DNA of 52,957 nucleotides, taken from Candidatus Hatepunaea meridiana. Lineage in GTDB: Bacteria; Electryoneota; AABM5-125-24; Hatepunaeales; Hatepunaeaceae. Positions 15,827 to 44,394 of this stretch are shown here, in pieces (the stretch's first letter is position 1; each line of letters opens with the position of its first letter). Location of the stretch: positions 1 through 52,957 of the forward strand of contig JAVCDD010000366.1 of the NCBI GenBank assembly GCA_030765125.1, written 5' to 3'. The position numbers and the translations under genes were made by a program. The notes beneath the pieces were generated by a model. That model searched no databases. It saw only the letters and a list, made by a program, of their open reading frames with translations, and was not told the DNA's origin.

Positions 15827-15856
15827 GTTGCGTCACTTGTTAACACCAGACGCAAT
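15827..15856. repeat. degenerate copy of the 30-bp palindrome
   Basis: An imperfect version of the GTTGCGTCAGGTGTT palindrome found at 16734 and 37716, with several mismatches. It lies in the gap between NRPS-2 and the beta-lactamase-fold gene. It shows the element also occurs outside genes. Confidence 0.7.
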
Positions 15857-15946: not shown

Positions 15947-18900
15947 TTATTGAAACTTCTTTCTAAAAGCTTCCGCATAGTCAGACTCTAAAGAATAATT
16001 GCTTATATGAAATTCTCCACCCGTAAACCCACGTTTTTTCAATGTAGTATAATTTTCAACGCAATCATCGGCTAAAGGAATACCTATCGTAGGAGTAATA
16101 TTTTCATCTTTTAACGTCAACAGGCAGGATAATACGCATCCGGTGAGATGACGAGAATTAAACCCTTCATAAGGGTCGGTATTGTTCTTGCGATAGATAT
16201 TTTGCATTTGCTCAGGTACGTAAGAAGTAACGTTCAGGTTTTCCGGTGTGAACAGAACTCCTCCCTCGGTAATAAGTATATCGGATTTATCCTGTATACG
16301 TTTAATCGCTTCCCCGATATGAAAACAGTGCGGTCCGGAGTCGTCTATAACAATCGAACCGGGCATTAGTTTTTCAATCTGTAAGATTTCCGCTACGTTA
16401 GTTGCTCCGATGTAAAAGCTAGAATCGTAGAATTGATCGGGAGGATAAGGCTGAGAGAATTGGATGTCAACCTGACCTTTGAATTTATATTCCCTTTTTA
16501 TCCGATCTTTTAAATCTTCCAGGTATTCACGCCTATTATACAAATCACACAGTATTATCTTCTTAGGATGGGGAAAGACTTGCAGCATCGAGAGCGCTAA
16601 TACAGATCCTACCGATCCTAATCCCAAAATGCCGACGTTCTCATTCTGAAATGATCTTCCTGTTTCCATAATGGTTTTTTCGATTTGTAACAGGATTGTT
16701 CCTATTGTCGTGGCGTGACCAGTAGTAATTAGTGTTGCGTCAGGTGTTAACACCTGACGCAACGTATTCGAGTTCAGGTATTTTACAATATCTTTTCCAT
16801 AGTCTGTCGCCGATGGAATCAGTCCGGTAAGTGAAATCGATTTAGCGCCGAGTTTTTCAGACAGGTCTTTAACCTGTTTGATCTCCGACAGTAATTTGTC
16901 CTTATCCTGATACATCGATCCGGTAAATCTGGGAAGAATAACGTATCCGATTGTGCCAAAATGCGTTTCGATTACATCACTGAGTATGGGAACATCTTCT
17001 ATTCTGGACAGGAATTCTTCTTCAGTAACTCTCATTGAAGTTAAAACCGATTCAGTAAAATACCCCAATGCAACCGCATCTAATCGAGGAAGTCTATTTG
17101 ATTCTATTAAGTCTTCCAACGATTGATCTGTGATGTGTAAGCGCTTTCTATCCTCGGTTAAATGTACCTTCGGGATTGGAGTGTCAACTGTCTTTGCTGT
17201 TTCAGGCTTAGGTTTCGACCTTTGATTATCTACGTACTTGGCGAACTGACGAACAGTCGGAGACGTAAATAGTTCTTTGGTAGAAACAGTAATACTTAGT
17301 TCTGACTGAATTGTATGGATCAATTGTATTGCATTCAAAGAACTGCCGCCAAGATCAAAGAAACTTGTGTCTATATCTATCGTTTCTATATTCAAGATAT
17401 TGCGCCAGATTTTGATTAAATGGTTTTCAGTATCACTGTATGATCTTTCAGCGCTCTCTGTTATTCGTGTTTCTTCTTCCGTATCCGGTAAAGCTTCGGT
17501 ATCTATCTTCCCATTATCAGTCAGCGGGAAACTTTCAACTGTTACAAACCAATCCGGTACCATATACAGCGGTAATCTTTCGCGAAGATATGATTTCAGG
17601 TCTTCAATTGACATCTCTTTTTTTTCTATTAAGTACACAACAAGCGCTTTAGTATTACCTTTGCTGCGAGTGATTACAACTGATCTGATTACATCCGGGT
17701 GTTCGTCTATAGTTGACTCTATTTCGCTTAATTCAACTCGGAATCCCCGGATTTTCACCATATTATCTGCTCTGCCGAGATACAGGATATTGCCATCCGG
17801 CAGCCATTTTCCGATGTCGCCTGACTTGAAAAGTTTCCCTTGATAAATAGTAGAAGCGACACTCTTGTCGCTTGAACTCTCGTATTTTGAAGACATTGCG
17901 CAAGCGACAAGAGTGTCGCTTCTACTATTTTTTGTATAGGGATCAGGAATAAACCGTTCTTCCGTGAGTTCTTGACTCTTGAAATATCCCCTTGCTACAT
18001 TATCGCCACCGAGATACAATTCACCGGGAACTCCAATCGGTACCGGTTGCTGGTTTTTATCCAGAATGTAAACCTTAGTATTAGGGAGGGGTTTGCCTAT
18101 AGGAATAAACTTGATATTAGATCCCGGATCATAGCTGTAAAAGGCGCTGCATACCGCTGTTTCTGTCGGACCATAGGCATTGTAAAAGTTTAAGTACCGG
18201 CTGTAATACTCTGCGTCCTCAGTACGCGCCGCTTCTGCTACGGAAGCCAGTATCCGCAGGTTTTTCAAGCAGCCTTTTCTTAAAGAAGCGATGTAACCCG
18301 GAGGTAATGTAGCTGCTGTAATTTTATACTTTTCAAGTGTTTCTTCAAATTTATTGGGATCGAGCACAACATCTCGCTGAATTGGAACCTGATGCGCTCC
18401 GAATACTAACGCCAGCAATATTTCCATAACCGAGGCATCGAAACTCAGCGAGGAGAACTGAAGCATAGTATCATCCCCGGTGAAACCCATCCGATTTCCC
18501 TGTCCCATTACTGTTGTCAGGATATTATGATGTTCGACCATAACACCTTTAGGCTTGCCGGTAGTGCCTGAAGTATAAATTACGTAGGCTAAATCACTTC
18601 CGCTAATGTGTCTTTCTGGATTTGGTGAATCCGATCTGGATATGGATTCTATATCGACAACATTCAGCGCAGGATCAAAATTAGAGAGTGTTATTTCATC
18701 AGACTTTAGCAATATCTTACATTCGCTGTCCTTAAGGATATATCGGACTCTTTTTTCGGGCAAATCACCATCAAGGGGCAGGAACGCAGCGCCGGTCTTA
18801 ACTACAGCCAGTATCGAAGCTATAGCAGCATCCGAACGGTTCATTAGAACTGCAATAATGTCATCGGGGTGGATAGAGTTTGACTCAATTAGAGTATGTG

Positions 18901-21900
18901 CGATGTCATTAGACCAACTGTTTAGTTCACTATAAGTTAATTTTCTTTCCTTGAACGATACAGCCAATTTGTCAGGATTAGCTCTGACCCGATCTTCGAT
19001 TATATCGACAACGGTCTTATCAGGCAGACTAATGCGATGTCTGTTGAAATGGTTAACGAGCAAATCTAATTCCTTATCGGGTATGTATGCGAGCCTGTCT
19101 AAAGACAATTGGTCGTCATCAAGGATACTCTGATTTAACTCGATAAAATGCGAGAGGATTCTCTCTATTGTATCGCGAGTGAACAGTGAGTCGTTGAAAT
19201 TTATAGAAGCTCTTATTTTTCCGGATGTCCATTTAAACTGGAATACCAGATCGAACTTGCTTGTTTTTTCTTCGATTGGAATCGGTTTAATTTGGTAATC
19301 ACTTTCCCACCAGGCATCATCCGAACCTTCTTCAAACACAACCATTACATTGAACAGTGAATTTTGATCCTCATATCGATCTAACCCAAGCATTTCAATG
19401 AGCAGATCATAGGGGTATAAACGATTATCGTGAGCGCGGGTTGTATTCTGTTTTACCTTCTTAAGGAACTCAGGGAATGTTGCCCAACCTTCCAGTTTGT
19501 TTCTCACAGCAAGGACATTCACATAAAACCCGATTTGGTTCTCTAAATCAGGATGAATTCTAAGACTTGTCGGCAGTCCGATAACAATATCGGATTGAGT
19601 GGTGTATTTATAAAGGAGAACATTTACCGCTGACAGCAGATACATAAAGGGAGTTACCTTATGGTTTCTGACATATTCTCTGATACGATCACCAAGCTCA
19701 TCATCAATTGTCATATTGACCGTCTGTCCTGTATCTTGTTTCTTATCGCTTCGAGGAAAGTCTGTGGGGAGGTTCAGGGGCGCCGGTTTATCCTTAAATT
19801 GATTGAGCCAATACTTTTCATATTTTCTAAAATATGGAGAATTGATAAACTGTTGCTGCCAATCCGAATAATCTTTGTATTGAACTCTTAATGCACCGAG
19901 AGGATACGATTCGTTTGATAAACAGGATTTATAAAGGATCAGTAATTCCTCAAAGAAGACGTCAATCGACTGTTCGTCGGCAATGATATGATGAATATTC
20001 AGGTAGAGAATAGATGATTTATCGCTTATCCTGAACAACTTGCATCTGAACAAGGGAGGAGCAGTCAAATTGAAAGAGGTATGCACGTCTGACCGGATTT
20101 GTTCGATGGCGTTTTTATAACCGTTCTCGTGTATAGAAGAGTATTGAGTACGCGCTTCAGCGCGTGTAATATCAGGAATATGGGGATTTGCTTCTACGCG
20201 CTGAAGCACGCACTCAATTACTTCCAAATCCACTTCAACAGAATCACAGATCACCTGCCTTGGCTCATTATCCCTCATTATGAAGGAAGTCCTTAATATT
20301 TCGTGTCTTTCTGTAAGTTTGGTAATAGCTCTTCGTAAAATATCCGGATCAATTTCTTTATCAACCTGGATTGCGCTAGGCATATTGTATTCAACCGATC
20401 CTGACTTTAGTTGGTCGATTGTCCATATCTGCTTTTGCGAATGAGATAACGGATAGTCCTCTTGACTTTCAGCAACTTCTATCCATGGTATCCCGGATGG
20501 TTTTTGACTGGCGACGAATTGATATAGTTGATTTAAGGTAGGATTATTAAAGAGGTCTTGAAGTTCCAAATCAATCATAAATTCTTTGCGAATAGCTGCT
20601 GCCAGCCGCATCGCTTTAAGGCTATGACCGCCCAGGTCAAAAAAGTCATCGTCCCAACTAAAATCGTCCCGGTTCAGTATCAACCGGTATAGTTCTTCGA
20701 GTTTCTGCCGGTTAGCCTTTCTGCTCGCATTCGTTTTTACCTGTCTTTTCTTCTGTTCCGATGGTGATGGTAGCAATTTCCTGTTAATTTTCCCGCTGCT
20801 CATAAGTGGGAACTGATCGAGGTGCATCAATTGTGTTGGTATCATATAATCGGGCAGGAATTTTTTAAGGTGGGTTTTAACATCAATAATACTATCGATT
20901 TCCTCGCCAGTGTAATAAGCAATTAAATCTTCACTGAACAATCCCGTGCCGCTAACGACAATACATCCTGTAATTCCTGGGAATTCAATAATATGATGTT
21001 CTATCTCACCTGGTTCAACCCGAAATCCTCTAACCTTGATCTGGTGATCGGCTCGTCCGAGGAATTCGATATCGCCGTTGGATAAGAACTTTCCTCTATC
21101 ACCGGTTAAATACATCTGCTCAGAATGTCCAAAGGGATTGTTAAAGAAAGCCTTTTCAGTCAGGTCAGGATTGTTATAATATCCCCTTCCAACGCCTTCG
21201 CCGCCTATATAAATATCACCCTCAACGCCTATCGGAACAGGTCTGAACTTCCTGTCCAGAATATACATGGTTTCGTTGATGAGTGGACTTCCTATTACAG
21301 GCATTTCGTCATCAATCTTCTTTGTTGTCGACCAGATAGTAGTCTCAGTTGGACCGTATACATTGAAAACCTTTGTCCCTTTCAACAAAGACAGGGTTCT
21401 ATATAAGTCCTTTGGAATTGGTTCGCCGCCTACCAGTAAAGTTTTTAGGTTAGCGAGAAATTCTGATCCAAGGTTTTCAAGTAATACTCTTAAATGAGAA
21501 GGTGTGATCTGAAGTGTATTGCATTTATGTTTTTCTAAAATCACCTGAATCTTAGCGGGGTCTTCAATTTCTTTTATATCAGCAATAAAAACAGTCATAC
21601 CAATGGTTAGAGGAAGAAACAGCTCAAGCACGGATATGTCAAAGGTATAAGTAGTCATTGCGAGTATAGTATCATCGGAATCGAGTCCAAATCTATCAAT
21701 CAAATTCGGCACGAAAGAAGATAGGTTCTTATGGGTTATCATTACTCCTTTAGGTGTGCCTGTTGATCCTGAAGTATAAAAAACATAAGCCAGATTAGAG
21801 TTGCTGATTTCTGCTTTATAAACCGGAGTGTTGAAGCTTGCTTCGGCATGCGCAAGCAAGCTTGCGCACTCCGGTTCATTAGCATCAATAGCTATTACCG

Positions 21901-23668
21901 GGACGTCTTGAATATCTTTCAATTGATCTATAACATCCGAATGCGTCAGTATTGCTTTTGGTGAGGTTTGATCCAGAATATATCGGATTCTCTCAGCGGG
22001 GTAATCCGGATCAATCGGCACATAAGCCGCTCCTGTTTTCCAGACACTTATTACACCTAAGATCATCCACTTACTGCGAGGAATTATAAGTGCAATCAAA
22101 TCGCCGTTTTTACAATCGCTTATCCTTATTAAGTCCTTAGCGATATAATTGGCAGCGCCGGTTAATTGTTGATAACTCAGTTCTTCGGATGAACTACTTA
22201 TCGCAATCTTCTCTGGGTATTTTTGGGATGTATCATCTATTAATTCTAATATGGTTCTATCATCTGAAGTTTTTTCAGTACTGCCACTATAATTGTCTAT
22301 AATGATTTTCTTTTCCTTCACGGGGAGGATTTCAATGTCTGACAATAATCCAGCCGGATCGTCTAAACAAAGTCTGAGTATTTGTTGAAAGTGTTCCCCT
22401 GTTCGAGTCATATCGTCTTCTGTATACACATTACGATTGTAAGAAAATCGAAGGTCAAGTTCTTCTCCTGGAAATATTGTCAGTTCAAGATCGTAGTGTG
22501 TTTGTTCATACATTTCCGATGAAATAATCTTGATTCCGGGCACGAATTCAGAGTTTTCAGATAATTTGTCTTTAGGTAGATTCTCAAAGACTAATATGTG
22601 TCTGAAGAGGTTCTCCCTTACTTCTGAAAGCGCTTGGATATCTGCTAGTGAATAATGAGAGTGAGGTCTCATTTCCACACTCGCATCGTGGATATTTTTA
22701 ACCAGTTTAGAAAAAGAGTCATTATCGGCTATTTGTGCTCTGAAAGGTATCGTATTTATCATTAAACCGACTACGCTTTCGATACCGATAATTTCGGACG
22801 GTCTTATCGATAAAGTGGAACCGAAGACAACGTCATTCGTATCATTATATCGGGAGAGTAATATTGACCAAATTGCATTAATCAGGGAATTTGCAGTTAC
22901 TTTGAGTTCTACGGTAAGCCGGTTTAATTGCGAGATGCGCTCTTTCTCTATGTTGATCCAATGTATGCCCAGATCGTAGGCTGATTTATTAGCCTCATCT
23001 GAAGTGTTAGGGAGAACGATTGCTTTATCATAACTTTTTAAGTAACCTTGCCAAAATTCACGGCTTTTTTCCGCGTCTTGTTTTTGTAACCAGTGTATGT
23101 ATTTACGATATTCTATTGAGGGTGGTAAAGTAACGGCTTCATTGTTTTTAAGCGATTGATAAACGGAATACAATTCGTTGTGTATTATACCTGAACACCA
23201 GCCGTCCATAAGGATATGATGGAACGTCCAGAGAATTATGTGCTCATCGGGTCTGATCTTTATTATCATTAATCTCATCGTTTCACCGACAGCGAGGTCT
23301 AACCGTCTTGTTCGTTCTTTTAGACGATATTTCTCAATTAATTCCTGCTGTTTAGTAGGGTTGTCGGTTAGGTCTTGATACTTAAAGTTTATTGCTTTTT
23401 TTGCGAGTATTACCTGGACGGGTCTTTGGCTTTTTTTATACTGAAATGCCGTTCGCAATACTTCATGGCGTTCCAGAATTATATCCCAACTCTTTGCAAG
23501 GCAGTCTATATCAAGTTCTCCGGATACATGCAGTGTCATTTGTTGAACGTAAGCCTGACTGTCTTTATCAAACAAAGAGTGGAAGAGCATTCCCTCCTGT
23601 AAAGGAGTAAGCGGAAGGATTTCGATGATGTTCTTTTTGGAAAGCAAATTCGTGGTTTTTAATCCCAT
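15947..23668 (-). CDS. NRPS-2, C-A-T-C-A-T with terminal AAR-like reductase
   Basis: Synthetase of 2573 residues. Order: C1 (about 10-440, LPLTPLQEGMLFH, HHILMDG 150-156), A1 (about 470-975, YTSGSTGTPKG), T1 (GGHS, Ser1016), C2 (about 1070-1500, HHIIADE 1226-1232), A2 (about 1555-2063, YTSGTTGKPKG), T2 (GGSS, Ser2110), and a C-terminal reductase-like domain (about 2165-2573). C1 begins with the motif typical of C domains placed after an epimerase. A1 code reads DILQLGVIWK, nine of ten residues of the known glycine code. A2 reads about DAMTAVAVCK, loosely Phe-like. The last domain has a Rossmann motif GLGSVGS near 2347, preceded by ITTGHATT and followed by VIDDSGPH and EGGVLF, and a GCVLSC segment with Cys2511. 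This order matches long-chain acyl-ACP reductase of cyanobacteria. C2 has Glu in place of the motif glycine. Four palindromic insertions lie in frame. AAAGG precedes the start. Confidence 0.93.
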   Translation of the reverse strand: MGLKTTNLLSKKNIIEILPLTPLQEGMLFHSLFDKDSQAYVQQMTLHVSGELDIDCLAKSWDIILERHEVLRTAFQYKKSQRPVQVILAKKAINFKYQDLTDNPTKQQELIEKYRLKERTRRLDLAVGETMRLMIIKIRPDEHIILWTFHHILMDGWCSGIIHNELYSVYQSLKNNEAVTLPPSIEYRKYIHWLQKQDAEKSREFWQGYLKSYDKAIVLPNTSDEANKSAYDLGIHWINIEKERISQLNRLTVELKVTANSLINAIWSILLSRYNDTNDVVFGSTLSIRPSEIIGIESVVGLMINTIPFRAQIADNDSFSKLVKNIHDASVEMRPHSHYSLADIQALSEVRENLFRHILVFENLPKDKLSENSEFVPGIKIISSEMYEQTHYDLELTIFPGEELDLRFSYNRNVYTEDDMTRTGEHFQQILRLCLDDPAGLLSDIEILPVKEKKIIIDNYSGSTEKTSDDRTILELIDDTSQKYPEKIAISSSSEELSYQQLTGAANYIAKDLIRISDCKNGDLIALIIPRSKWMILGVISVWKTGAAYVPIDPDYPAERIRYILDQTSPKAILTHSDVIDQLKDIQDVPVIAIDANEPECASLLAHAEASFNTPVYKAEISNSNLAYVFYTSGSTGTPKGVMITHKNLSSFVPNLIDRFGLDSDDTILAMTTYTFDISVLELFLPLTIGMTVFIADIKEIEDPAKIQVILEKHKCNTLQITPSHLRVLLENLGSEFLANLKTLLVGGEPIPKDLYRTLSLLKGTKVFNVYGPTETTIWSTTKKIDDEMPVIGSPLINETMYILDRKFRPVPIGVEGDIYIGGEGVGRGYYNNPDLTEKAFFNNPFGHSEQMYLTGDRGKFLSNGDIEFLGRADHQIKVRGFRVEPGEIEHHIIEFPGITGCIVVSGTGLFSEDLIAYYTGEEIDSIIDVKTHLKKFLPDYMIPTQLMHLDQFPLMSSGKINRKLLPSPSEQKKRQVKTNASRKANRQKLEELYRLILNRDDFSWDDDFFDLGGHSLKAMRLAAAIRKEFMIDLELQDLFNNPTLNQLYQFVASQKPSGIPWIEVAESQEDYPLSHSQKQIWTIDQLKSGSVEYNMPSAIQVDKEIDPDILRRAITKLTERHEILRTSFIMRDNEPRQVICDSVEVDLEVIECVLQRVEANPHIPDITRAEARTQYSSIHENGYKNAIEQIRSDVHTSFNLTAPPLFRCKLFRISDKSSILYLNIHHIIADEQSIDVFFEELLILYKSCLSNESYPLGALRVQYKDYSDWQQQFINSPYFRKYEKYWLNQFKDKPAPLNLPTDFPRSDKKQDTGQTVNMTIDDELGDRIREYVRNHKVTPFMYLLSAVNVLLYKYTTQSDIVIGLPTSLRIHPDLENQIGFYVNVLAVRNKLEGWATFPEFLKKVKQNTTRAHDNRLYPYDLLIEMLGLDRYEDQNSLFNVMVVFEEGSDDAWWESDYQIKPIPIEEKTSKFDLVFQFKWTSGKIRASINFNDSLFTRDTIERILSHFIELNQSILDDDQLSLDRLAYIPDKELDLLVNHFNRHRISLPDKTVVDIIEDRVRANPDKLAVSFKERKLTYSELNSWSNDIAHTLIESNSIHPDDIIAVLMNRSDAAIASILAVVKTGAAFLPLDGDLPEKRVRYILKDSECKILLKSDEITLSNFDPALNVVDIESISRSDSPNPERHISGSDLAYVIYTSGTTGKPKGVMVEHHNILTTVMGQGNRMGFTGDDTMLQFSSLSFDASVMEILLALVFGAHQVPIQRDVVLDPNKFEETLEKYKITAATLPPGYIASLRKGCLKNLRILASVAEAARTEDAEYYSRYLNFYNAYGPTETAVCSAFYSYDPGSNIKFIPIGKPLPNTKVYILDKNQQPVPIGVPGELYLGGDNVARGYFKSQELTEERFIPDPYTKNSRSDTLVACAMSSKYESSSDKSVASTIYQGKLFKSGDIGKWLPDGNILYLGRADNMVKIRGFRVELSEIESTIDEHPDVIRSVVITRSKGNTKALVVYLIEKKEMSIEDLKSYLRERLPLYMVPDWFVTVESFPLTDNGKIDTEALPDTEEETRITESAERSYSDTENHLIKIWRNILNIETIDIDTSFFDLGGSSLNAIQLIHTIQSELSITVSTKELFTSPTVRQFAKYVDNQRSKPKPETAKTVDTPIPKVHLTEDRKRLHITDQSLEDLIESNRLPRLDAVALGYFTESVLTSMRVTEEEFLSRIEDVPILSDVIETHFGTIGYVILPRFTGSMYQDKDKLLSEIKQVKDLSEKLGAKSISLTGLIPSATDYGKDIVKYLNSNTLRQVLTPDATLITTGHATTIGTILLQIEKTIMETGRSFQNENVGILGLGSVGSVLALSMLQVFPHPKKIILCDLYNRREYLEDLKDRIKREYKFKGQVDIQFSQPYPPDQFYDSSFYIGATNVAEILQIEKLMPGSIVIDDSGPHCFHIGEAIKRIQDKSDILITEGGVLFTPENLNVTSYVPEQMQNIYRKNNTDPYEGFNSRHLTGCVLSCLLTLKDENITPTIGIPLADDCVENYTTLKKRGFTGGEFHISNYSLESDYAEAFRKKFQ
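16734..16763. repeat. perfect 30-bp palindrome inside NRPS-2
   Basis: Half-site GTTGCGTCAGGTGTT followed by its exact complement. It is read in frame as TLRQVLTPDAT, near residues 2302-2312, just before the Rossmann fold of the terminal reductase domain. The identical 30 bases occur at 37716-37745 in the hybrid gene. Confidence 0.95.
17849..17926. repeat. hairpin insertion inside NRPS-2 (A2 domain)
   Basis: 25-bp inverted arms (AGTAGAAGCGACACTCTTGT plus CGCTT, 17849-17873; complement 17902-17926) flank a 28-bp spacer. It is read in frame near residues 1915-1940, between the GYFKSQELTEERF stretch and the TGDxG-like motif of A2, adding about 26 residues absent from other A domains. The left arm is identical to 8101-8125. 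Confidence 0.9.
20142..20216. repeat. hairpin insertion inside NRPS-2 (C2 domain)
   Basis: 23-bp near-perfect arms (ATTGAGTACGCGCTTCAGCG and complement) at 20142-20164 and 20194-20216. It is read in frame near residues 1151-1176 of C2, ahead of the HHIIADE motif, in a surface-loop region. Confidence 0.85.
21821..21876. repeat. palindromic insertion inside NRPS-2 (A1 domain)
   Basis: AACCGGAGTG...CACTCCGGTT outer arms with inner AAGCTTGC/GCAAGCTT units. It is read in frame near residues 598-616 of A1, in the variable loop just before the YTSGSTGTPKG loop. Confidence 0.8.
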
Positions 23669-34902: not shown

Positions 34903-37900
34903 ATGAATACCAATAAAGAACAACAATACATCTCAGCTTTAAAACAAGCTGCTGCAAAGATTAAAGAACTTAGCTCAAAGGTACAGCAGGATAAATCGAA
35001 CGAAGCGATTGCAATTATCGGCGCTGGGTGCAGATACCCCGGTGGGGTGAATGATCTGGAAGGTTACTGGCGTATTCTTGAAGATGGGATCGATACCCGT
35101 TCGGAAATGCCTTTGGACAGGTTCACTTCGAAACTCCCTGAATCAGAGTTCAGATCAAGAGTTGATGGAGGACATTTTTGGGGATGTTTCCTCGACGACC
35201 TTGAGTATTTTGATCCTACGTTCTTTCATATTACCCCGAATGAATCGATTGCTTATGAACCGAATCAAAAATTGCTGCTTGAAACCGCGTGGCAGACCTT
35301 TGAAAATGCAGGATTAACCCCCGATAAAATAAATGGAAGTCTAACCGGCGTCTACATTGGATTAACAGGTGTTGATTATGGTTCCGCCCAGCTTCTTACA
35401 GGAAATCTGGATACTATTACACCTTACTCTCTCACTGGTCTTTTACCTTGTGTGGGAGCCGCTCGTCTGTCCTACTTTTTCGATTTGAATGGACCAAGTA
35501 TGGCTTTTGACACGGCTTGTTCCTCGTCTCTTGTCGCTTTGCACAACGCAATACTCGCGCTGCGTAACAATGAAATTGATATGGCGGTAGTTGGAGGCGC
35601 AAGTGTAGTAATTTCACCGGAAGTGCATATCGGCTTCTCGCAACTCCAGGCTATTACCCCCACCGGAGTATGCCGCGCTTTTGATGATACTGCCGATGGT
35701 TATATACGGGGCGAGGGATGCGGAGTTGTGTTAATCAAGCGATTATCGGACGCTCAGAGAGATAAAAACAACATACTCGCAGTCATACGAGGTTCGGCGA
35801 TTAACAGCGACGGTCGCAGCGCAGGAATGACTGCGCCAAACGGATTGGCACAAGAACGGGTGATAAAAGACGCATTGAAAGATGCAGGAATAGATGCAAA
35901 TGAAATAGACTACATAGAAGCTCACGGAACCGGAACGATTCTTGGCGATCCTATTGAAGTAAATGCTTTATCGAGAGTCTTCTCTAATCGTTCGAAAAGC
36001 AATCCTCTTTTAATCGGAACGGTAAAAACAAATATTGGACACCAGGAAAGCGGCGCTGGTGTTGCCGGATTGATTAAATTAATACTGGCTCTTAATCATA
36101 AGAAAATACCTGCAAGTCTGAATTTTAGAAACCCTAATAAACAAATACCCTGGGAGAATATACCAATCCAGGTATTAGATAAAACAATTGACTGGAAGAA
36201 AACCGATGGAATTAGAACCGCTGGTTTAAGCAGCTTTGGCTTCAGTGGTACGAATGCGCACGTTATCATTCAAGAGCCACCGGAAATCATTGAACCGGAA
36301 ACGCAATCCGTTGAAAGACCACATCATATAATTGCGATTTCCGGTATGAATGATAATGCCCTTTCCGAGTCAATCCAAAGACATTCCCAAGCTATTAAAA
36401 ATACTGTAGCTATTAAAAACACTGTCATTCCCGCGAAGGCGGGAATCCAGAACTCCAATCATAAACTTGCTGATTACTGTTACAGCGCAAATTCAGGACG
36501 GGCACACTTCAATAAAAGAAAAGCTTTCCACGGAAAGACAAAATCAGAGCTTCTAAATAGACTGTCAAAATGGTCAAAATCGGCTAAATCACCGAGATCA
36601 TCTGCAAAAAAAGGGAAATTGGTATTCCTCTTCACCGGAGGAGGCAGTCAGTACAAAGAAGCGAGTCGTTCGCTTTGGGAAACGCATTCGGACTTCCGTG
36701 AGAACCTTTTAAAATGCGATGAGTTGTTCTATCCGCATATCAATGCTAGGATAACCGAACTGCTGTTTTCACCGGATTCGGATCCGCAGTTGCTTGACCA
36801 AATACTGTATATGCAGCCGGTAATATTCTCCGTAGGATATGCATTAGCGCAACTATGGATGGATTGGGGTATCTATCCGGATATGGTGATTGGACACTCA
36901 ATTGGAGAGTATATCGCTGCGTGCATAGCCAATGTTTTCAGTCTTAAGGATGCCGTTGCAATCGTTTCCAAACGCGGTCAACTGTTGCAATCGTTGCCTG
37001 ATAATGGTTGTATGCTGTCAATCAATGGAAGTTTCGATGAGGTTCAAGACTATATCGCTCCGTATTCTGATTCAGTTTCTATGGCGGCGATTAATGCGCC
37101 TGATTCCATAACGGTATCAGGTGAAAAGAAAGCGATAGATGAGATTACTTCTCGATTAGAGCGGGAAGAGATCAAATTCAAGAACCTGAGCATCTCAATT
37201 TCATCCCATTCTCCGTTGACTAAACCGATATTGGGCGAGTTTAAAAAAGAGCTTTCACTTCACAAATTCCGCGATCCACAAATCCCCTTGATCACAAATA
37301 TTAACGGAAAGTTCGCTGAGAAGGGTGAAATCAGCAGCCCGGATTACTGGTGTAATCACCTCTTGAAACCGGTTCAATTCTTGGATTCTATTCAATTTGC
37401 CGCTTCTAAAAAAGCGAATTACTTCTTAGAAATTGGGAGCCATAGTACACTCAGTTCAATGGGACAACAATGTCTCGATGGTGATAATCATCTGTTTCTG
37501 CCTTCTCTAATTCGGGATCAGGATGACTGGGACGTCATTTTAGAAACCGTCTCTATACTCTATCAAGAAGGCTACAATATTGATTGGGAAGCATTCGATA
37601 AGCCATATCCAAGACGAAGGATACAAGTGGCTCACTATCCTTTCCAAAAGGAATACAATTGGCTAAAACCGGTTGCAGGCGGAGGTCGAGCCGGTGAACG
37701 TTTAACCGAACCAAAGTTGCGTCAGGTGTTAACACCTGACGCAACAGAAAAAATGCTAAAAACTGACGTAAGAGAACCAATGACGACTCCGATAACAGCA
37801 GAATCGGTTGCAACCCATATTGCGAGTGAACCCGCCGTCGTTGAGGATATTATAGTTGAAGGCGCGATCGATGAGATTGTCGAGAAAGTAAAGGAGTTCA

Positions 37901-40900
37901 TCAACCAGGTAAGCGGGATTAGAGCCGATTCGATTGATCCGGATGCGAACCTGTTTTATATAGGATTAGATTCGCTTACAATTGTTGAGCTTCAGAATAA
38001 GATCAACGACCATTACAGTATAGAGCTTAACGTACAGGAGATTTACGAGAAGTATAATACGACACAACTGATTGCCGAATATATCCAGCAGAACGCGGTT
38101 TTTCATAAGGCAGTCCCCAAAGAAACTAAACAACTCGTTAAGTCCATCGAACCTGTCGAGACACCCATAACAGCCGGAAGCAGCGTCACCGATATAATTA
38201 ACCAACAGCTTCAATTGATGAATAAGCAGTTGGAAGTATTATCGGCTGCCGGTCAAGCGCCGCCTGATGATTTGGTTCAGAGAATTGAAAGCAAACCTCA
38301 ACCGATAGAATCACTATCGACTGTTCTTGTCAAGACACGATCTATCATCACCGATGATGTCAATCCAATTAGAGGGATGATCTTCGTTGATGAGAATTTG
38401 TCACCGCAGCAGCGCAATTTTATACAAGACCTTACAACGCGATATAACAGGAAGACTCCAAAATCAAAAGAGTACGCTCAGAAAAACAGGAAGCTTTCAG
38501 CGGATTGGATTGCCTCGCTGGGTTATAGAAAGAGTTTGCGGGATTTGATCTATCCAATAGTATCCGCACACTCGCAAGGTTCACACTTTACTGATATAGA
38601 CGGTAACGATTATGTCGATACTGCAATGGGATACGGAGTTCATTTCTTTGGTCACCAGCCGCCGTTTGTTATGGATGCGATAAGACATCAGTTGGACGAA
38701 GGGTTTGAATTAGGTCCTCAGACGGACTTGATTGATGAAAATGCCCGAATGGTGCAGGATTTAACAGGTGTTGATCGTGTAGTGTTTACTAATACGGGAA
38801 CGGAAGCTGTAATGGCTGCCGTGAGGCTGGCGCGCGCTGTAACCGGCAAGAATCAGCTCGTGATCTTCTCAGGCGCTTTCCACGGCACTTTCGATGGCAT
38901 TCTTGCAATGGCGGAAGGTGATTACACTATGCCGTTTTCACCGGGGACTCCTCCAGGAATGGTGTCTGACGTCAAGGTGCTAACTTATGGATCCGAAGAT
39001 TCATTGAAATATATCAGGAAAAACGCTGATAAAATTGCCGCAGTACTGACTGAACCGGTGCAGAGTCGTCGACCGGGATTCCACCCTGTCGAATTCCTGA
39101 GGAATCTCAGGTCTATTACGGATCAACATTCCGTGGCGTTGATCTTTGATGAAATGGTTTCCGGGTTTCGTATCCACCCCGGCGGCGCACAGTACACCTT
39201 TGGAGTAAAGGCTGATATTATTGCTTATGGTAAGTTAATCGGCGGAGGGATGCCTATAGGAATAGTTGCAGGAAAATCGGATTATCTCGATGCGTTTGAC
39301 GGCGGTTACTGGACTTTCGAAGATGAAAACTCTGCACCGAACACAAAGACAATGGTTTACGGTGGTACATTCTGCAAACATCCCTTAACAATGGCAGCAA
39401 CCAACGCTGTCCTAAAGTATTTAATCGCCCAAGGACCCAGATTGCAGGATCGGGTTAATGCGCTAACAGTTGGACTGTCGGATCAATTGAACCGATACTT
39501 TGAGAATAAATCCGCACCGGTAAGAATTCGCAATTACAGCTCAATGCTGCGGTTTGAATCGTTTGGAAAATACGATCTCACGCGTATGCCGATAGAGATG
39601 GATCTGCTGTTCTATTCGATGATTGAAAAAGGCGTCTATACGTGGGAACGACGGATTTGTTTCCTGTCTACTGTTCACGATGATAATGATATTGCACAGA
39701 TAGTCGATGCAGTTTGCGAATCAATCGAAGATATTCGCAAGGGTGGGTTCTCTTTTAGAGATGATGATCAGGAAAAGATCACTTCGCAGGCAGGTACACC
39801 TGCGCCACCGGTCACTTCGTTTCCGATGAGTTCAGCTCAACAGCGGTTGTTTGTTCTTTCACAATTTCCCGGTGGTGAGTTAAGCTATCATATAAGCGGC
39901 GCAATTAAATTAACCGGAAACCTTGATCGTGATAAAATCGAGTCAACCCTTAGAGAGCAGTTACTTCGTCATGAAACCCTTCGCACTGGATTTAAAGTTG
40001 AGAATGATACCTTGATAAGAGTTATTCATAAAGACGCGCCTCTGAATATTGAAACAACTCAAATAGAACCGGATCCTGATAAAATACAGGATTATCTTAA
40101 GAGTTTCATAAGACCGTTTGACCTTTCGGAGCCGCCCTTATTTAGAGTTGGTCTCGCAGAGATTACTCCAACAGAGCACTTGCTGGTATTAGACGTACAT
40201 CATATTGCAGTGGATGGCTTTTCACTGAATATTATAATGCAGGAATTCATGCGTTTGTATCTTGGACAGCAATTGCCGCAATTAACCGCGACATATTCCG
40301 ATTATCCAATTGAAGAATTAGAATACTTCAAATCCGAAAAATTTGCTAATGATGAGAATTACTGGTTAGAAACTTACAAGGGTGATATTCCCGTCCTAGA
40401 TCTGCCTTTAGACTATTCTCATCCACCTGTTCAGGATTTTTCAGGTTTTACTAACAGAAGCACGTTAGAAGAATCAATCGTGCAATCGTGTGAGGCATTA
40501 GCGCGTGAGACCAATTCAACGCTATTTACCGTGCTGTTCACCGCATTTAACGTTTTACTGCATAGATTATCAACCCAAACCGATCTTATAGTCGGTGTGC
40601 CGGTAATAGGACGCCCGTCAGGAAAGTACTCTAACGTTATTGGAATGTTCGCTAATACTCTGCCTATAAGAACCGGAATCGAAGAAGGCGATACATTCCT
40701 GACCTATCTGGAAAGGGTGAAGAATATTCTTGGTTCCTCATTTGCGCACCAGCAATATCCCTTTGAAAAACTGGTAGATCAACTTAACCTCGAAAGAGAT
40801 ATGAGTCGCAATGTCCTTTTTACGACCTCGTTTGTATATGAGAAAGCTGATGATCGTCTACCTGCTTTACCTGGCTTGACGCTTGAGGAAGTTGATATTA

Positions 40901-43900
40901 ATATTAAATCATCCCTCTTCGATCTGACCTTTGAATGCATCCAGGCGCGCGGGCAAATTAAGCTGAATATAAATTACAGAACAGATTTATTCAAAGAAGA
41001 TACGATTGAACGGTGGAAGGACTATTTCATTAACATTCTGGATGAAGTTTCACAAAAACCTGAAACACAATTATCACAAATTGATTTGTTGAGGGATTTG
41101 GATTCAAAAAGCATAATTATTGGCGAAACCTATCCTATTGAACCTTCCCAGTCAACCATAATAGATATCTTCCATCAGTCAGCAAAAGCTCACCCGGATA
41201 GAACTGCCATTCTATTTGAAGATACATCCTTAACACTTCAGGAAGTAGAGGATTTATCCGATCATATTGCTGCCAGATTGATCAAACAGTATAAAACCGA
41301 AACTGGTGAACCGATTGGAATGTTTGTAGCGCCTGATGAGAACCTATTTCCATTGATGATGGGTATTATGAAATCGGGTGGCGCTTTCCTGCCTATAGAC
41401 CGTGATACTCCTGAAAGTCGAATTCAATATATTATTGAAAATTCTGAACTAAAATTAATTATAACAGATTCTATGGATATTGATGACTATCGATTAGAAT
41501 GTAAAGTTATATCAATTGAAGACCTGATATCAGGTGAAAGGGAACAGCTTCCATCAAATCTATCCGCGCAAATAGCGCCGGATAATATCGCTTATATCAT
41601 ATATACATCAGGCACTACCGGCAACCCTAAAGGTGTAATTGTATCGCATTTTGGAGTGGCTAATTATATTCACTGGGTAAATAAAGAGTATAATATTGAA
41701 CCGGAAGACCGTTCTATACTTTTAACACCGCATTCATTCGATCACAGTTTTACACATTTGCTTGGAATTCCGGCTTTGGGCGGGAGTTTATATATATGCA
41801 ATGATATTGACAGGAAGGACCCTGATAGACTAATACAGTATATTGTAAATAAAGGTATTACTATATTAACATTAATTCCCTCATATTTACATTTAGTCCT
41901 GCAATCAAAGTATGTGAAGGATTTAAAAAATTCTACTCAACTTCGATTATTCCTATCAGGCGGTGAGGCTATTCGACCGAATGATATTCAGGCATTGCAT
42001 CAACTATGCCCGAATACTCGCATGGATGACCATTACGGACCTGCTGAAAGCACTATTAGCAGTATTATCCATGAAATTGATTTTAACAACTACGAGAAAT
42101 TTCTGAACAAACCCGTCGTTGGTAAGCCTGTTGGTAATTCGGAAGTACTAATTCTCAGTAAAGAGCTTAAAATACAACCTATAGGTGTTCCGGGTGAGAT
42201 TGTTATTGGAGGCGCCTGTCTGGCTAAAGGTTACATTAACAATCCGGAACGAACAAACCAATCTTTCATAAAGCTTTCCGATGAATCCGATAAAGTGTAT
42301 TACCGGACAGGCGACCTTGGGACGATCACATCGGATGGAACAGTTGAATTTCTGGGAAGAATTGACAGACAGATTAAATGGAATGGTTTCAGGCTTGAGC
42401 TGGGTGAAATAGAGGGTGCAGTAACAAGAATTAGAGCTATTAACGATGCTGTGGTAATTCTGCGTGATGATATTCCATCTATGCCTGAATTGGTTGCATT
42501 TTATACATCTTCAGAAAATATAGATTCTGAAACCATTCGTGAACACCTGAAACGGACCCTTCCGGTCTATTCCATTCCTTCAAGATTCATTCGGTTAGAT
42601 AAGATTCCCTTAACGCCAAATGGTAAAATAGATCAGAAAGAACTCAAGCAATATCCGATAGATAGCATTGTATCTCCACCATCAGTAGGTAGGACACTCC
42701 TGTCCGACACTCCCAATCCGACAGACAAGAGTGTCTATCCTACTACGGTAATAAATGAGGAGGAAACACACAATGAATTATTACATTTATGGCGAGAAGT
42801 ATTGGGGAACGATCAAATTCAACCGACTGATAACTTTTTTGAAGTCGGTGGAACAAGCATCAAAGCTATCTTGCTGATGATGAAAATACGCGATCAGCTC
42901 AATTGGGATGTAACCTTGCAGGACATCTTCAAGTATCCTACAGTGAAGCAGTTTGTAAATAACGTTGATTCGTCAGTATCCATTTCCCTGCCGCCTTTAG
43001 AACCATTGTCCTATCAGGAATCTTATGATTTATCTCACGCACAGAAGCGACTGTGGATACTCTCTAACCGGAAGGAAAGTTCGCAGGCTTACAATATGCA
43101 CATCGTTTATGAGTACAATACTACTTTCGATGAAGAACTCTTGCGTATGACAACAGAGCAGCTTTGCTTGCGTCACGAAGCATTACGAACGACTTTTAAG
43201 GTTATAGATGGAAAACCACGTCAAGTGATACATAGTGAACCATTATACGACTTGAAGGTTATTGCTGTTGAAAAAGAAGTAGATATGGAAGATAAAATAC
43301 AAAGTGTTTACTATGAAGAAGTTAATTACCAATTCGATCTAACACAAGGGCCATTGCTTCGCATCACAAATCTGTATTCTCCATCCAATCCAGATAAGTC
43401 CTTCCTGGTTCTTAACGTACATCACATCATTACTGATGGTTGGTCAAACAATATTCTGATGAAAGAATTTATACTTCTTTATCAAAATGCACAGACCGAT
43501 GAGTTGCCACCCCTGGATATACAATACAAGGATTATGCAGTATGGCACAATCAAATAATTCAGAGCGCTCTCGTTGAACCACACCGTCAATACTGGCAGA
43601 ATAAACTAACAGGAATCCTGCCGGTTCTGGATTTATTCGGGGAAATATTACCGGAAACGATGGGCTTCAAAGGTAAATGGTTTGCGTCCGACCTTTCAAA
43701 TGAATTATCACAGAATCTGCATAATCTGGCAAAGAAGCATAAAATCAGTTTGTATAATCTTTTTGTTTCCTGTATAAAAACGCTTTTAATAGTCCACGCT
43801 TCGCAGAAAGACATTATTATATCGACTCCGGTTTCCGGGCGGGTTCATCCGAAATTGGAAAACCAGGTTGGCTTTTATCTAAATATGTTAGTATTAAGAG

Positions 43901-44394
43901 ATACCTTCACGGGTGATGAAACCCTAAATGAAATAATGAATATGGTTTCCCGTACATTCAATGAAAGTATTGAACATGAAATTTATCCTTATGATGCAAT
44001 TATCGATGATCTAAACCTGGTTTATGGGAATAAACGAATTCCATTATTAGATGTGATAGTAAACTCAGTTGATTACGAAAATCTACAAAACATAGAAATT
44101 CAAGGAATTAGAGGTGTTCCGCACCTTGAGGATTCTCACACCAGTCGAGCGTTATTGAACTTTTATTGTATTCAAAAGGAAGCCATACAAGTTGCTATAG
44201 AATATGATAGCGAACTGTTAAATCCATCACAAGTAGAAACACTATCGGATGACCTGCAAAGAATTATGAACATATTCATTGCTCAACCCAATCTAACATT
44301 GAATCAGATAAAAACCATGTTCACCTCGACTGATGTAATTGAAGAACAACAGGAGTATCTTGATTCGACTATAGATATTGATGAGGATTTTTAG
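34903..44394 (+). CDS. hybrid PKS/NRPS: KS-AT-ACP-aminotransferase-C-A-T-C
   Basis: 3163 residues. Order: N-terminal docking-like coiled coil (1-32), KS (about 33-460, Cys206, His341, His380), AT (about 570-925, GHSIGE with Ser666, ISSH ending at His769 where HAFH or YASH is usual), ACP (GLDSL, Ser1024), class III aminotransferase (about 1190-1615, PLP Lys1444, Asp1416 in FDEMVSGFR), C1 (about 1638-2060, HHIAVDG 1766-1772), A (about 2085-2580, YTSGTTGNPKG), T (GGTS, Ser2652), C2 (about 2706-3140, HHIITDG), acidic tail. The embedded aminotransferase should turn the beta-ketone left by the KS into a beta-amine, as in mycosubtilin and iturin synthetases (MycA/ItuA), which share the order KS-AT-ACP-AMT-C-A-T-C. 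The A code reads about DHTTLGHISK, weakly Asp-like. There is no A-T after C2, so the acceptor is NRPS-1. Three repeat insertions lie in frame. No ribosome-binding site is visible. Confidence 0.94.
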   Translation: MNTNKEQQYISALKQAAAKIKELSSKVQQDKSNEAIAIIGAGCRYPGGVNDLEGYWRILEDGIDTRSEMPLDRFTSKLPESEFRSRVDGGHFWGCFLDDLEYFDPTFFHITPNESIAYEPNQKLLLETAWQTFENAGLTPDKINGSLTGVYIGLTGVDYGSAQLLTGNLDTITPYSLTGLLPCVGAARLSYFFDLNGPSMAFDTACSSSLVALHNAILALRNNEIDMAVVGGASVVISPEVHIGFSQLQAITPTGVCRAFDDTADGYIRGEGCGVVLIKRLSDAQRDKNNILAVIRGSAINSDGRSAGMTAPNGLAQERVIKDALKDAGIDANEIDYIEAHGTGTILGDPIEVNALSRVFSNRSKSNPLLIGTVKTNIGHQESGAGVAGLIKLILALNHKKIPASLNFRNPNKQIPWENIPIQVLDKTIDWKKTDGIRTAGLSSFGFSGTNAHVIIQEPPEIIEPETQSVERPHHIIAISGMNDNALSESIQRHSQAIKNTVAIKNTVIPAKAGIQNSNHKLADYCYSANSGRAHFNKRKAFHGKTKSELLNRLSKWSKSAKSPRSSAKKGKLVFLFTGGGSQYKEASRSLWETHSDFRENLLKCDELFYPHINARITELLFSPDSDPQLLDQILYMQPVIFSVGYALAQLWMDWGIYPDMVIGHSIGEYIAACIANVFSLKDAVAIVSKRGQLLQSLPDNGCMLSINGSFDEVQDYIAPYSDSVSMAAINAPDSITVSGEKKAIDEITSRLEREEIKFKNLSISISSHSPLTKPILGEFKKELSLHKFRDPQIPLITNINGKFAEKGEISSPDYWCNHLLKPVQFLDSIQFAASKKANYFLEIGSHSTLSSMGQQCLDGDNHLFLPSLIRDQDDWDVILETVSILYQEGYNIDWEAFDKPYPRRRIQVAHYPFQKEYNWLKPVAGGGRAGERLTEPKLRQVLTPDATEKMLKTDVREPMTTPITAESVATHIASEPAVVEDIIVEGAIDEIVEKVKEFINQVSGIRADSIDPDANLFYIGLDSLTIVELQNKINDHYSIELNVQEIYEKYNTTQLIAEYIQQNAVFHKAVPKETKQLVKSIEPVETPITAGSSVTDIINQQLQLMNKQLEVLSAAGQAPPDDLVQRIESKPQPIESLSTVLVKTRSIITDDVNPIRGMIFVDENLSPQQRNFIQDLTTRYNRKTPKSKEYAQKNRKLSADWIASLGYRKSLRDLIYPIVSAHSQGSHFTDIDGNDYVDTAMGYGVHFFGHQPPFVMDAIRHQLDEGFELGPQTDLIDENARMVQDLTGVDRVVFTNTGTEAVMAAVRLARAVTGKNQLVIFSGAFHGTFDGILAMAEGDYTMPFSPGTPPGMVSDVKVLTYGSEDSLKYIRKNADKIAAVLTEPVQSRRPGFHPVEFLRNLRSITDQHSVALIFDEMVSGFRIHPGGAQYTFGVKADIIAYGKLIGGGMPIGIVAGKSDYLDAFDGGYWTFEDENSAPNTKTMVYGGTFCKHPLTMAATNAVLKYLIAQGPRLQDRVNALTVGLSDQLNRYFENKSAPVRIRNYSSMLRFESFGKYDLTRMPIEMDLLFYSMIEKGVYTWERRICFLSTVHDDNDIAQIVDAVCESIEDIRKGGFSFRDDDQEKITSQAGTPAPPVTSFPMSSAQQRLFVLSQFPGGELSYHISGAIKLTGNLDRDKIESTLREQLLRHETLRTGFKVENDTLIRVIHKDAPLNIETTQIEPDPDKIQDYLKSFIRPFDLSEPPLFRVGLAEITPTEHLLVLDVHHIAVDGFSLNIIMQEFMRLYLGQQLPQLTATYSDYPIEELEYFKSEKFANDENYWLETYKGDIPVLDLPLDYSHPPVQDFSGFTNRSTLEESIVQSCEALARETNSTLFTVLFTAFNVLLHRLSTQTDLIVGVPVIGRPSGKYSNVIGMFANTLPIRTGIEEGDTFLTYLERVKNILGSSFAHQQYPFEKLVDQLNLERDMSRNVLFTTSFVYEKADDRLPALPGLTLEEVDINIKSSLFDLTFECIQARGQIKLNINYRTDLFKEDTIERWKDYFINILDEVSQKPETQLSQIDLLRDLDSKSIIIGETYPIEPSQSTIIDIFHQSAKAHPDRTAILFEDTSLTLQEVEDLSDHIAARLIKQYKTETGEPIGMFVAPDENLFPLMMGIMKSGGAFLPIDRDTPESRIQYIIENSELKLIITDSMDIDDYRLECKVISIEDLISGEREQLPSNLSAQIAPDNIAYIIYTSGTTGNPKGVIVSHFGVANYIHWVNKEYNIEPEDRSILLTPHSFDHSFTHLLGIPALGGSLYICNDIDRKDPDRLIQYIVNKGITILTLIPSYLHLVLQSKYVKDLKNSTQLRLFLSGGEAIRPNDIQALHQLCPNTRMDDHYGPAESTISSIIHEIDFNNYEKFLNKPVVGKPVGNSEVLILSKELKIQPIGVPGEIVIGGACLAKGYINNPERTNQSFIKLSDESDKVYYRTGDLGTITSDGTVEFLGRIDRQIKWNGFRLELGEIEGAVTRIRAINDAVVILRDDIPSMPELVAFYTSSENIDSETIREHLKRTLPVYSIPSRFIRLDKIPLTPNGKIDQKELKQYPIDSIVSPPSVGRTLLSDTPNPTDKSVYPTTVINEEETHNELLHLWREVLGNDQIQPTDNFFEVGGTSIKAILLMMKIRDQLNWDVTLQDIFKYPTVKQFVNNVDSSVSISLPPLEPLSYQESYDLSHAQKRLWILSNRKESSQAYNMHIVYEYNTTFDEELLRMTTEQLCLRHEALRTTFKVIDGKPRQVIHSEPLYDLKVIAVEKEVDMEDKIQSVYYEEVNYQFDLTQGPLLRITNLYSPSNPDKSFLVLNVHHIITDGWSNNILMKEFILLYQNAQTDELPPLDIQYKDYAVWHNQIIQSALVEPHRQYWQNKLTGILPVLDLFGEILPETMGFKGKWFASDLSNELSQNLHNLAKKHKISLYNLFVSCIKTLLIVHASQKDIIISTPVSGRVHPKLENQVGFYLNMLVLRDTFTGDETLNEIMNMVSRTFNESIEHEIYPYDAIIDDLNLVYGNKRIPLLDVIVNSVDYENLQNIEIQGIRGVPHLEDSHTSRALLNFYCIQKEAIQVAIEYDSELLNPSQVETLSDDLQRIMNIFIAQPNLTLNQIKTMFTSTDVIEEQQEYLDSTIDIDEDF
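36424..36450 (+). repeat. single MITE arm inside the hybrid gene (KS-AT linker)
   Basis: One arm of the CATTCCCGCGAAGGCGGGAA element, read in frame as TVIPAKAGIQ (residues about 507-516), in the linker between KS and AT. Just upstream an 18-bp unit is duplicated, giving AIKNTVAIKNTV. Confidence 0.85.
37716..37745. repeat. perfect 30-bp palindrome inside the hybrid gene
   Basis: Identical to 16734-16763. It is read in frame as LRQVLTPDAT (residues about 939-948), in the flexible linker between AT and ACP. Confidence 0.95.
42685..42743. repeat. hairpin insertion inside the hybrid gene (A-T linker)
   Basis: Imperfect 20-bp arms GTAGGTAGGACACTCCTGTC (42685-42704) and GACAAGAGTGTCTATCCTAC (42724-42743). 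It is read in frame as SVGRTLLSDT...TDKSVYPT between the A and T domains. Confidence 0.85.

Follow-up and report, generated by a model that had tools for sequence, protein, structure and literature searches.

A 30-bp palindrome, probably a very small mobile element, inserted in frame in unrelated genes of Candidatus Hatepunaea meridiana

The palindromic elements of Rickettsia (RPEs, RPE-1 among them) are found in frame in unrelated conserved genes as well as between genes; the insert is tolerated, and no dedicated transposase has been identified for them (PMC2229807; PMC3733652). The RPEs reviewed are stem-loops of 105-146 bp, and a guanylate kinase tested with its RPE insert stays active (PMC2229807). 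RPE-4 and RPE-6 have been filed as CGTC REPs, which have no dedicated transposase and some of which are intragenic (PMC3733652). REPs as a whole are mostly intergenic; intragenic ones have been reported from a number of species, most abundantly from O. terrae and R. conorii (PMC3733652). The genes for REP-associated tyrosine transposases (RAYTs) are reported to lie, without exception, between two inverted REPs (PMC2817692), and REPINs have been proposed as the unit that is moved (PMC3116915).

The window considered here (the whole stretch of DNA analysed, 52,957 nucleotides) contains two identical, perfect 30-bp palindromes, both encoding LRQVLTPDAT in frame, in host genes on opposite strands, just as an earlier note on this DNA had claimed. 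One is at 16734..16763, in the C-terminal reductase domain of an NRPS of 2573 aa (15947..23668, minus strand), a homologue of PDB 9e4s. The other, an exact match at 37716..37745, lies between the AT and the ACP of a hybrid megasynthase of 3163 aa (34903..44394, plus strand); it falls at about residue 350 of the queried fragment, after the acyltransferase match (2-289) and before the carrier-protein match (406-473), and the domain calls of that note hold at both sites. The degenerate copy it had placed at 15827 is real by sequence match (15827..15856) and lies between two genes, with 4 mismatches and symmetry retained at 11 of 15 arm positions. Over the window, the half-site at <=3 mismatches is observed 6 times where 0.7 would be expected.

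The earlier note had proposed counting copies in the genome, and the count is about 95. The window's genome (G000, a MAG of 5.3 Mb in 382 contigs, 92% complete) has 93-96 copies of the palindrome GTTGYGTCAGGTGTTAACACCTGACRCAAC, 93 of them full at <=3 mismatches, against 0 matches to a reversed control pattern; they are spread across many contigs, and many are identical. When 85 copies are aligned with their surrounding DNA, the flanks are unrelated beyond sharp 30-bp borders, and the unit is therefore 30 bp. The two main subtypes (GTTGCG and GTTGTG) are each symmetric on both arms, and are accompanied by rarer symmetric variants and by many one-sided changes resembling decay. Substitutions are common to both arms more often than independent decay predicts. 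As single-stranded DNA the palindrome is predicted to form a hairpin (-15.1 kcal/mol, z -7.3) with a 13-bp stem and a TTAA loop, symmetric to its ends and without an unpaired GTAG-type tag. Exact half-site pairs, searched among 84,980 species genomes, occur elsewhere only in the Calditrichaeota MAG VGIO and in JADHWD, of the same phylum. A phage or plasmid origin is rejected, with no match in the viral contigs searched or in plasmids, for which a 30-base query is borderline in the search used. The DNA that was read has 11 tRNAs, none within 60 bp of a palindrome copy.

The RPEs, to which the earlier note had likened this palindrome, are a good match in behavior: both elements are inserted in frame into conserved genes whose orthologs lack them, both are tolerated there, and both occur in genes and between them. 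The likeness does not extend to sequence or length. The reviewed RPEs are 105-146 bp long, differ in sequence and belong to intracellular, alphaproteobacterial Rickettsia, whereas the 30-mer is 30 bp long, perfectly symmetric, at home in Calditrichota, and has RAYT-linked relatives in sister genera. Given its length and its Calditrichota host, the 30-mer therefore resembles an RPE in the way it works without being one. With REP/RAYT systems it shares a hairpin in the 20-40 bp range, a high copy number and, in a sister genus, relatives that flank a RAYT in inverted orientation (PMC2817692, PMC3116915), but it lacks the unpaired GTAG tag, occurs as singlets rather than as inverted pairs, and flanks no RAYT found in its own genome. 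CGTC REPs are similar in having no dedicated transposase, some intragenic copies, and the letters CGTC or TGTC, which the 30-mer has in its arm (PMC3733652). In CGTC REPs, however, this tag is unpaired at one end, the stem is 8-9 bp and the tail (CCA-like) is unpaired, whereas in the 30-mer the same letters are paired inside the 13-bp stem and there are no tails. Palindromes in the coding sequence of Nematomorpha mitochondria are likewise perfect inverted repeats whose arm identity is maintained, but they do not represent a single inserted sequence in dispersed copies (PMC6649704). No report of such repeats in Calditrichota was found in open-licence papers. The small dispersed repeats of cyanobacteria described by Elhai and colleagues, known mainly from intergenic sites, resemble the 30-mer in being very small (a few tens of bases), mobile and devoid of a gene of their own.

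Insertion of a mobile palindrome into coding DNA, the central claim of the earlier note, is supported both by the number of copies and by comparison with orthologs. Orthologs from across the phylum, all from outside the genus, were found with one joined query and then aligned at the insertion sites. At 13 sites in 12 host genes, the window's 16734 included, every relative aligned is without the insert; the same peptide in orthologs, which that note had named as the finding that would count against it, appears at none of these sites. The gain over relatives is exactly 10 residues (10 codons) in NAD synthase (nadE) and in a radical-SAM gene, and in some other host proteins a net 7 to 20 residues, by way of extra tandem pieces or loop divergence. 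In the window's NRPS reductase, the peptide is missing from both the relative L157 and the solved homolog 9e4s; the net gain is 7 residues, not 10, and therefore the loop itself differs too. Solved PurM homologs are also without the peptide, and the best solved homolog of IspH aligns as two pieces flanking the insert. In relatives, divergence at the DNA level is too great for empty sites to be resolved, and paralogs gave one clean case, in which the copy at L036 6907 adds exactly 30 bp, with no target duplication, to what is seen in a paralogous empty stretch 3.7 kb away. For the copy at 37716, it is the identity of its DNA to other copies that points to insertion.

The coding statistics come from 1.1 of the 5.3 Mb, with 727 genes making up 87% of it under a simple coding model; this DNA was picked around known copies, which inflates their density but should not inflate the results on frame and host genes. 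Of 84 copies placed, 52 are in genes, 30 are intergenic, and 2 are at gene edges. The consensus is stop-free in a single frame (reading LRQVLTPDA or LCQVLTPDT), and 50 coding copies use that frame. The two others are called in frame 0, where symmetric changes convert that frame's TGA to CGA, and all 52 are therefore readable. Thus the observation that length 30 keeps the frame, and that the frame used is open, extends from the window to every coding copy, each being stop-free and adding ten codons. The coding share of 63% is close to the 68.5% expected from random insertion with one surviving frame of three (p=0.34) and differs from the 87% expected without a frame filter (p=9e-8). Substitutions in the coding copies (15 synonymous, 33 nonsynonymous) match the neutral expectation (p=0.76) and affect codon positions evenly; therefore the encoded peptide seems to be tolerated rather than used. 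Ten of the 52 lie within the first tenth of the called gene, and for some of these the true start codon may lie after the palindrome. Hosts come from unrelated protein families, as the earlier note had said of its two domains, and include PurM, IspH (LytB), NAD synthase, a FolC-type ligase, apolipoprotein N-acyltransferase (lnt), FtsX, a ROK protein, squalene/phytoene synthase, an M16C peptidase, a LUD-domain protein and a radical-SAM protein. One squalene/phytoene synthase gene has two in-frame palindromes, L052:12632 and L052:13097, 465 bp apart.

Another REP family in the same DNA, TGTCATTCCCGCGAAGGCGGGAATCCAG, which we take to be of the dRS3/CGTC-1 type, provides a useful comparison. Its 96 copies are 95% intergenic (91 intergenic, 5 coding), and 39 of its 48 forward copies have an inverted partner <=200 bp away. 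The 30-mer, genic in 52 of 84 copies against 5 of 96 (Fisher p=8e-18), thus departs from the mostly extragenic habit of REPs; as the TGTCATTCCCGCGAAGGCGGGAATCCAG family is almost wholly intergenic in the same DNA, the in-gene habit belongs to the 30-mer and not to the genome or to the gene calls. Within the window, one TGTCATTCCCGCGAAGGCGGGAATCCAG copy (36423-36450, peptide VIPAKAGIQ) is in frame within the hybrid megasynthase, and further copies of this intergenic family, mostly in inverted pairs, are at 368, 413, 1476, 1575, 12519 and 12564. Repeats of about 125 bp are seen at many contig ends of this genome (e.g. the right flanks of L030:16890 and L080:12802), and probably break the assembly.

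The borders of 74 copies show no direct repeat of >=5 bp, with a weak excess of repeats at 2 bp (13 vs 5) and 4 bp (3 vs 0.3), and the 30-mer does not group with MITEs that have a target-site duplication. Counting outward from the 30 bp, C is depleted at +1 and A enriched at +5 and +6 (p=1.7e-8 at +6), a preference that persists without the tandem cases (p=1.4e-5), and the flanks of insertions are preferentially AT-rich. A strict target motif is rejected, and the target-site rule that the earlier note suggested looking for comes down to this weak preference.

At 20 similarity-selected places the palindrome is trailed by a second partial arm, with a period of 21-30 bp; this period is 21, 27 or 30 (multiples of three) within genes and mostly 28, 23 or 26 between genes. 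The second arm has diverged by 16%, vs 4% for the adjoining palindrome (p=0.0006), in a comparison biased by the selection of palindromes at <=7 mismatches. Weaker cases may be chance, including the window's possible decayed partial arm at 37759..37772 (plus strand), 27 bp downstream of its counterpart in the palindrome, which matches the consensus arm at 10 of 14 letters. If the fragments are real, the greater divergence of the second arms makes the intact palindromes younger than the fragments they adjoin, an age order suggesting that old sites are converted or receive a new insertion.

Related genomes (G007, G017, G002, G011, G001, G006 and G003) have palindromes that share the core TCAGGTG-N4-CACCTGA and differ in loops and outer bases; those read with their surroundings are mostly outside long ORFs. 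A search of G007, from a sister genus, with its own consensus yields 45 palindromes with a conserved GTGG at one end. The same genome encodes (contig C89) a RAYT of 164 aa, with HUH motif HIH and its tyrosine in KLNYIHNSP, between GCTGTCAGGTGTCCTCACCTGACAGC and GCCGTCAGGTGAGGACACCTGACGGC; these flanking hairpins have the core GTCAGGTG-N4-CACCTGAC and a TCCT loop, and are in inverted orientation. Several of the closest homologs of this RAYT in the phylum have flanking hairpins of the same layout with other sequences, as expected if enzyme and repeat change together. A RAYT, which the earlier note offered as an example of a mobilizing transposase, is thus seen beside same-core hairpins in the sister genus. 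In the window's genome, none was detected between GTTGYGTCAGGTG palindromes, an absence that is no proof because that genome is only 92% complete. The five Y1 proteins (RAYTs) of G000 each have their own, different flanking repeats. None is a close homolog of the G007 enzyme, and the palindrome is therefore an orphan in this assembly. A parent transposon bounded at both ends by the palindrome was looked for and rejected, none being seen and the RAYTs of G000 having other REPs.

Among these RAYTs, the one in L096 (G000:C381, at 35227-35463) lies amid several CCCGGCTTCTCCGAAGCCGGG-type hairpins, apparent copies of which are translated within it (repeat KKPGLSVLND). Three more RAYT genes, in L093, L095 and L097 (G000:C303, C381 and C232), have their own flanking repeats, with a GTAG motif in those of C381 (AGTAGATGCGACACTCTTGTCGCAT) and C232 (CGCGTAGGGGCCGATTTATCG), which makes for several independent REP-RAYT pairs in this genome. 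In the G006 relative L092, a 31-bp relative of the palindrome occurs at 5792-5822 and 5972-6002, 180 bp apart in one ORF, in a different frame (VASGVFHLT). Related hairpins also form regular tandem arrays in G007 (C4:12564-13069, C22:23817-24196 and C44:12551-13138, with spacings of about 158 bp, 87 bp and multiples of 62 bp).

Very likely, the 30-mer is mobile DNA, a tiny element that is non-autonomous and probably selfish. It would land close to randomly, selection would remove insertions in the two stop-containing frames, and insertions in the open frame would survive with ten extra residues tolerated, probably in surface loops, a placement drawn from alignments with relatives and solved homologs. 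As to its origin, we lean toward descent from a REP with a hairpin recognized by a RAYT (an HUH Y1 transposase), because hairpins on either side of the sister-genus RAYT have the same stem core. In the G000 lineage, a TTAA loop and symmetric outer bases would have turned this hairpin into a unit that is palindromic throughout and folds identically on either strand. Such a unit could be moved in single-stranded, folded form, in keeping with the absent target duplication; its mobilizer may have been lost, may lie in the unassembled part of the genome, or may be another RAYT acting in trans. More doubtful is a broader proposal, in which this perfectly symmetric 30-bp element would rank among the smallest gene invaders described, insert almost at random without duplicating its target, have no tie to a host transposase, and renew its older sites by re-insertion or conversion.

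Readings other than a mobile element account for parts of these data. Both window copies encode the same peptide, as would native protein sequence shared by ancestry or convergence, but the hosts are from unrelated families, the same DNA occurs in intergenic copies, and the substitutions show no protein constraint; with orthologs lacking the peptide at all 13 sites tested, this reading is rejected for the tested genes and has next to no credibility. It is highly improbable, too, that the inserts go untranslated, through translational bypassing or removal from RNA, as for the bypassed palindromic elements of mitochondrial genes in the yeast Magnusiomyces capitatus (as cited in PMC6649704). Frame should not matter to bypass or splicing, yet all coding copies are stop-free, and tandem periods inside genes are multiples of three (21, 27, 30) where intergenic ones include 23, 26 and 28; on these two grounds the reading is rejected.

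A perfect palindrome is also the usual shape of a dimer site, and many identical copies over many contigs might be binding sites for a host protein (a regulator, nucleoid or segregation factor) kept by selection, with the coding copies as tolerated sites. We find this improbable, as the copies are whole 30-bp insertions rather than point-mutated sites, the genic/intergenic split matches random insertion plus a frame filter, and the sister-genus relatives differ in loops and outer bases and flank the G007 RAYT gene. Less improbable, though still unlikely, is an origin with no transposase at all, the palindromes arising and being renewed by template switching and by conversion between copies during replication. 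Arms that share substitutions above the level of independent decay, intact palindromes that adjoin more decayed partial arms, and the want of a cognate RAYT in G000 would all fit. Template switching, however, perfects a palindrome in place and does not alone carry 30 bp into unrelated genes, and the family includes the RAYT-flanking relative in G007.

Insertion of a mobile palindrome into genes is thus well supported, while a mobilizing transposase is something we only infer. With this finding, a Rickettsia-like palindrome invasion of essential genes is seen in a phylum far removed from Rickettsia, and the named relatives there were sampled from open water. Provided that the share in the sampled DNA is representative, the same ten-residue peptide would be naturally inserted in about 60 genes, a ready data set on protein insertion tolerance. 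Because RAYT-flanking relatives survive in sister genera, both the transition from REP to gene invader and any continued need for the enzyme are testable.
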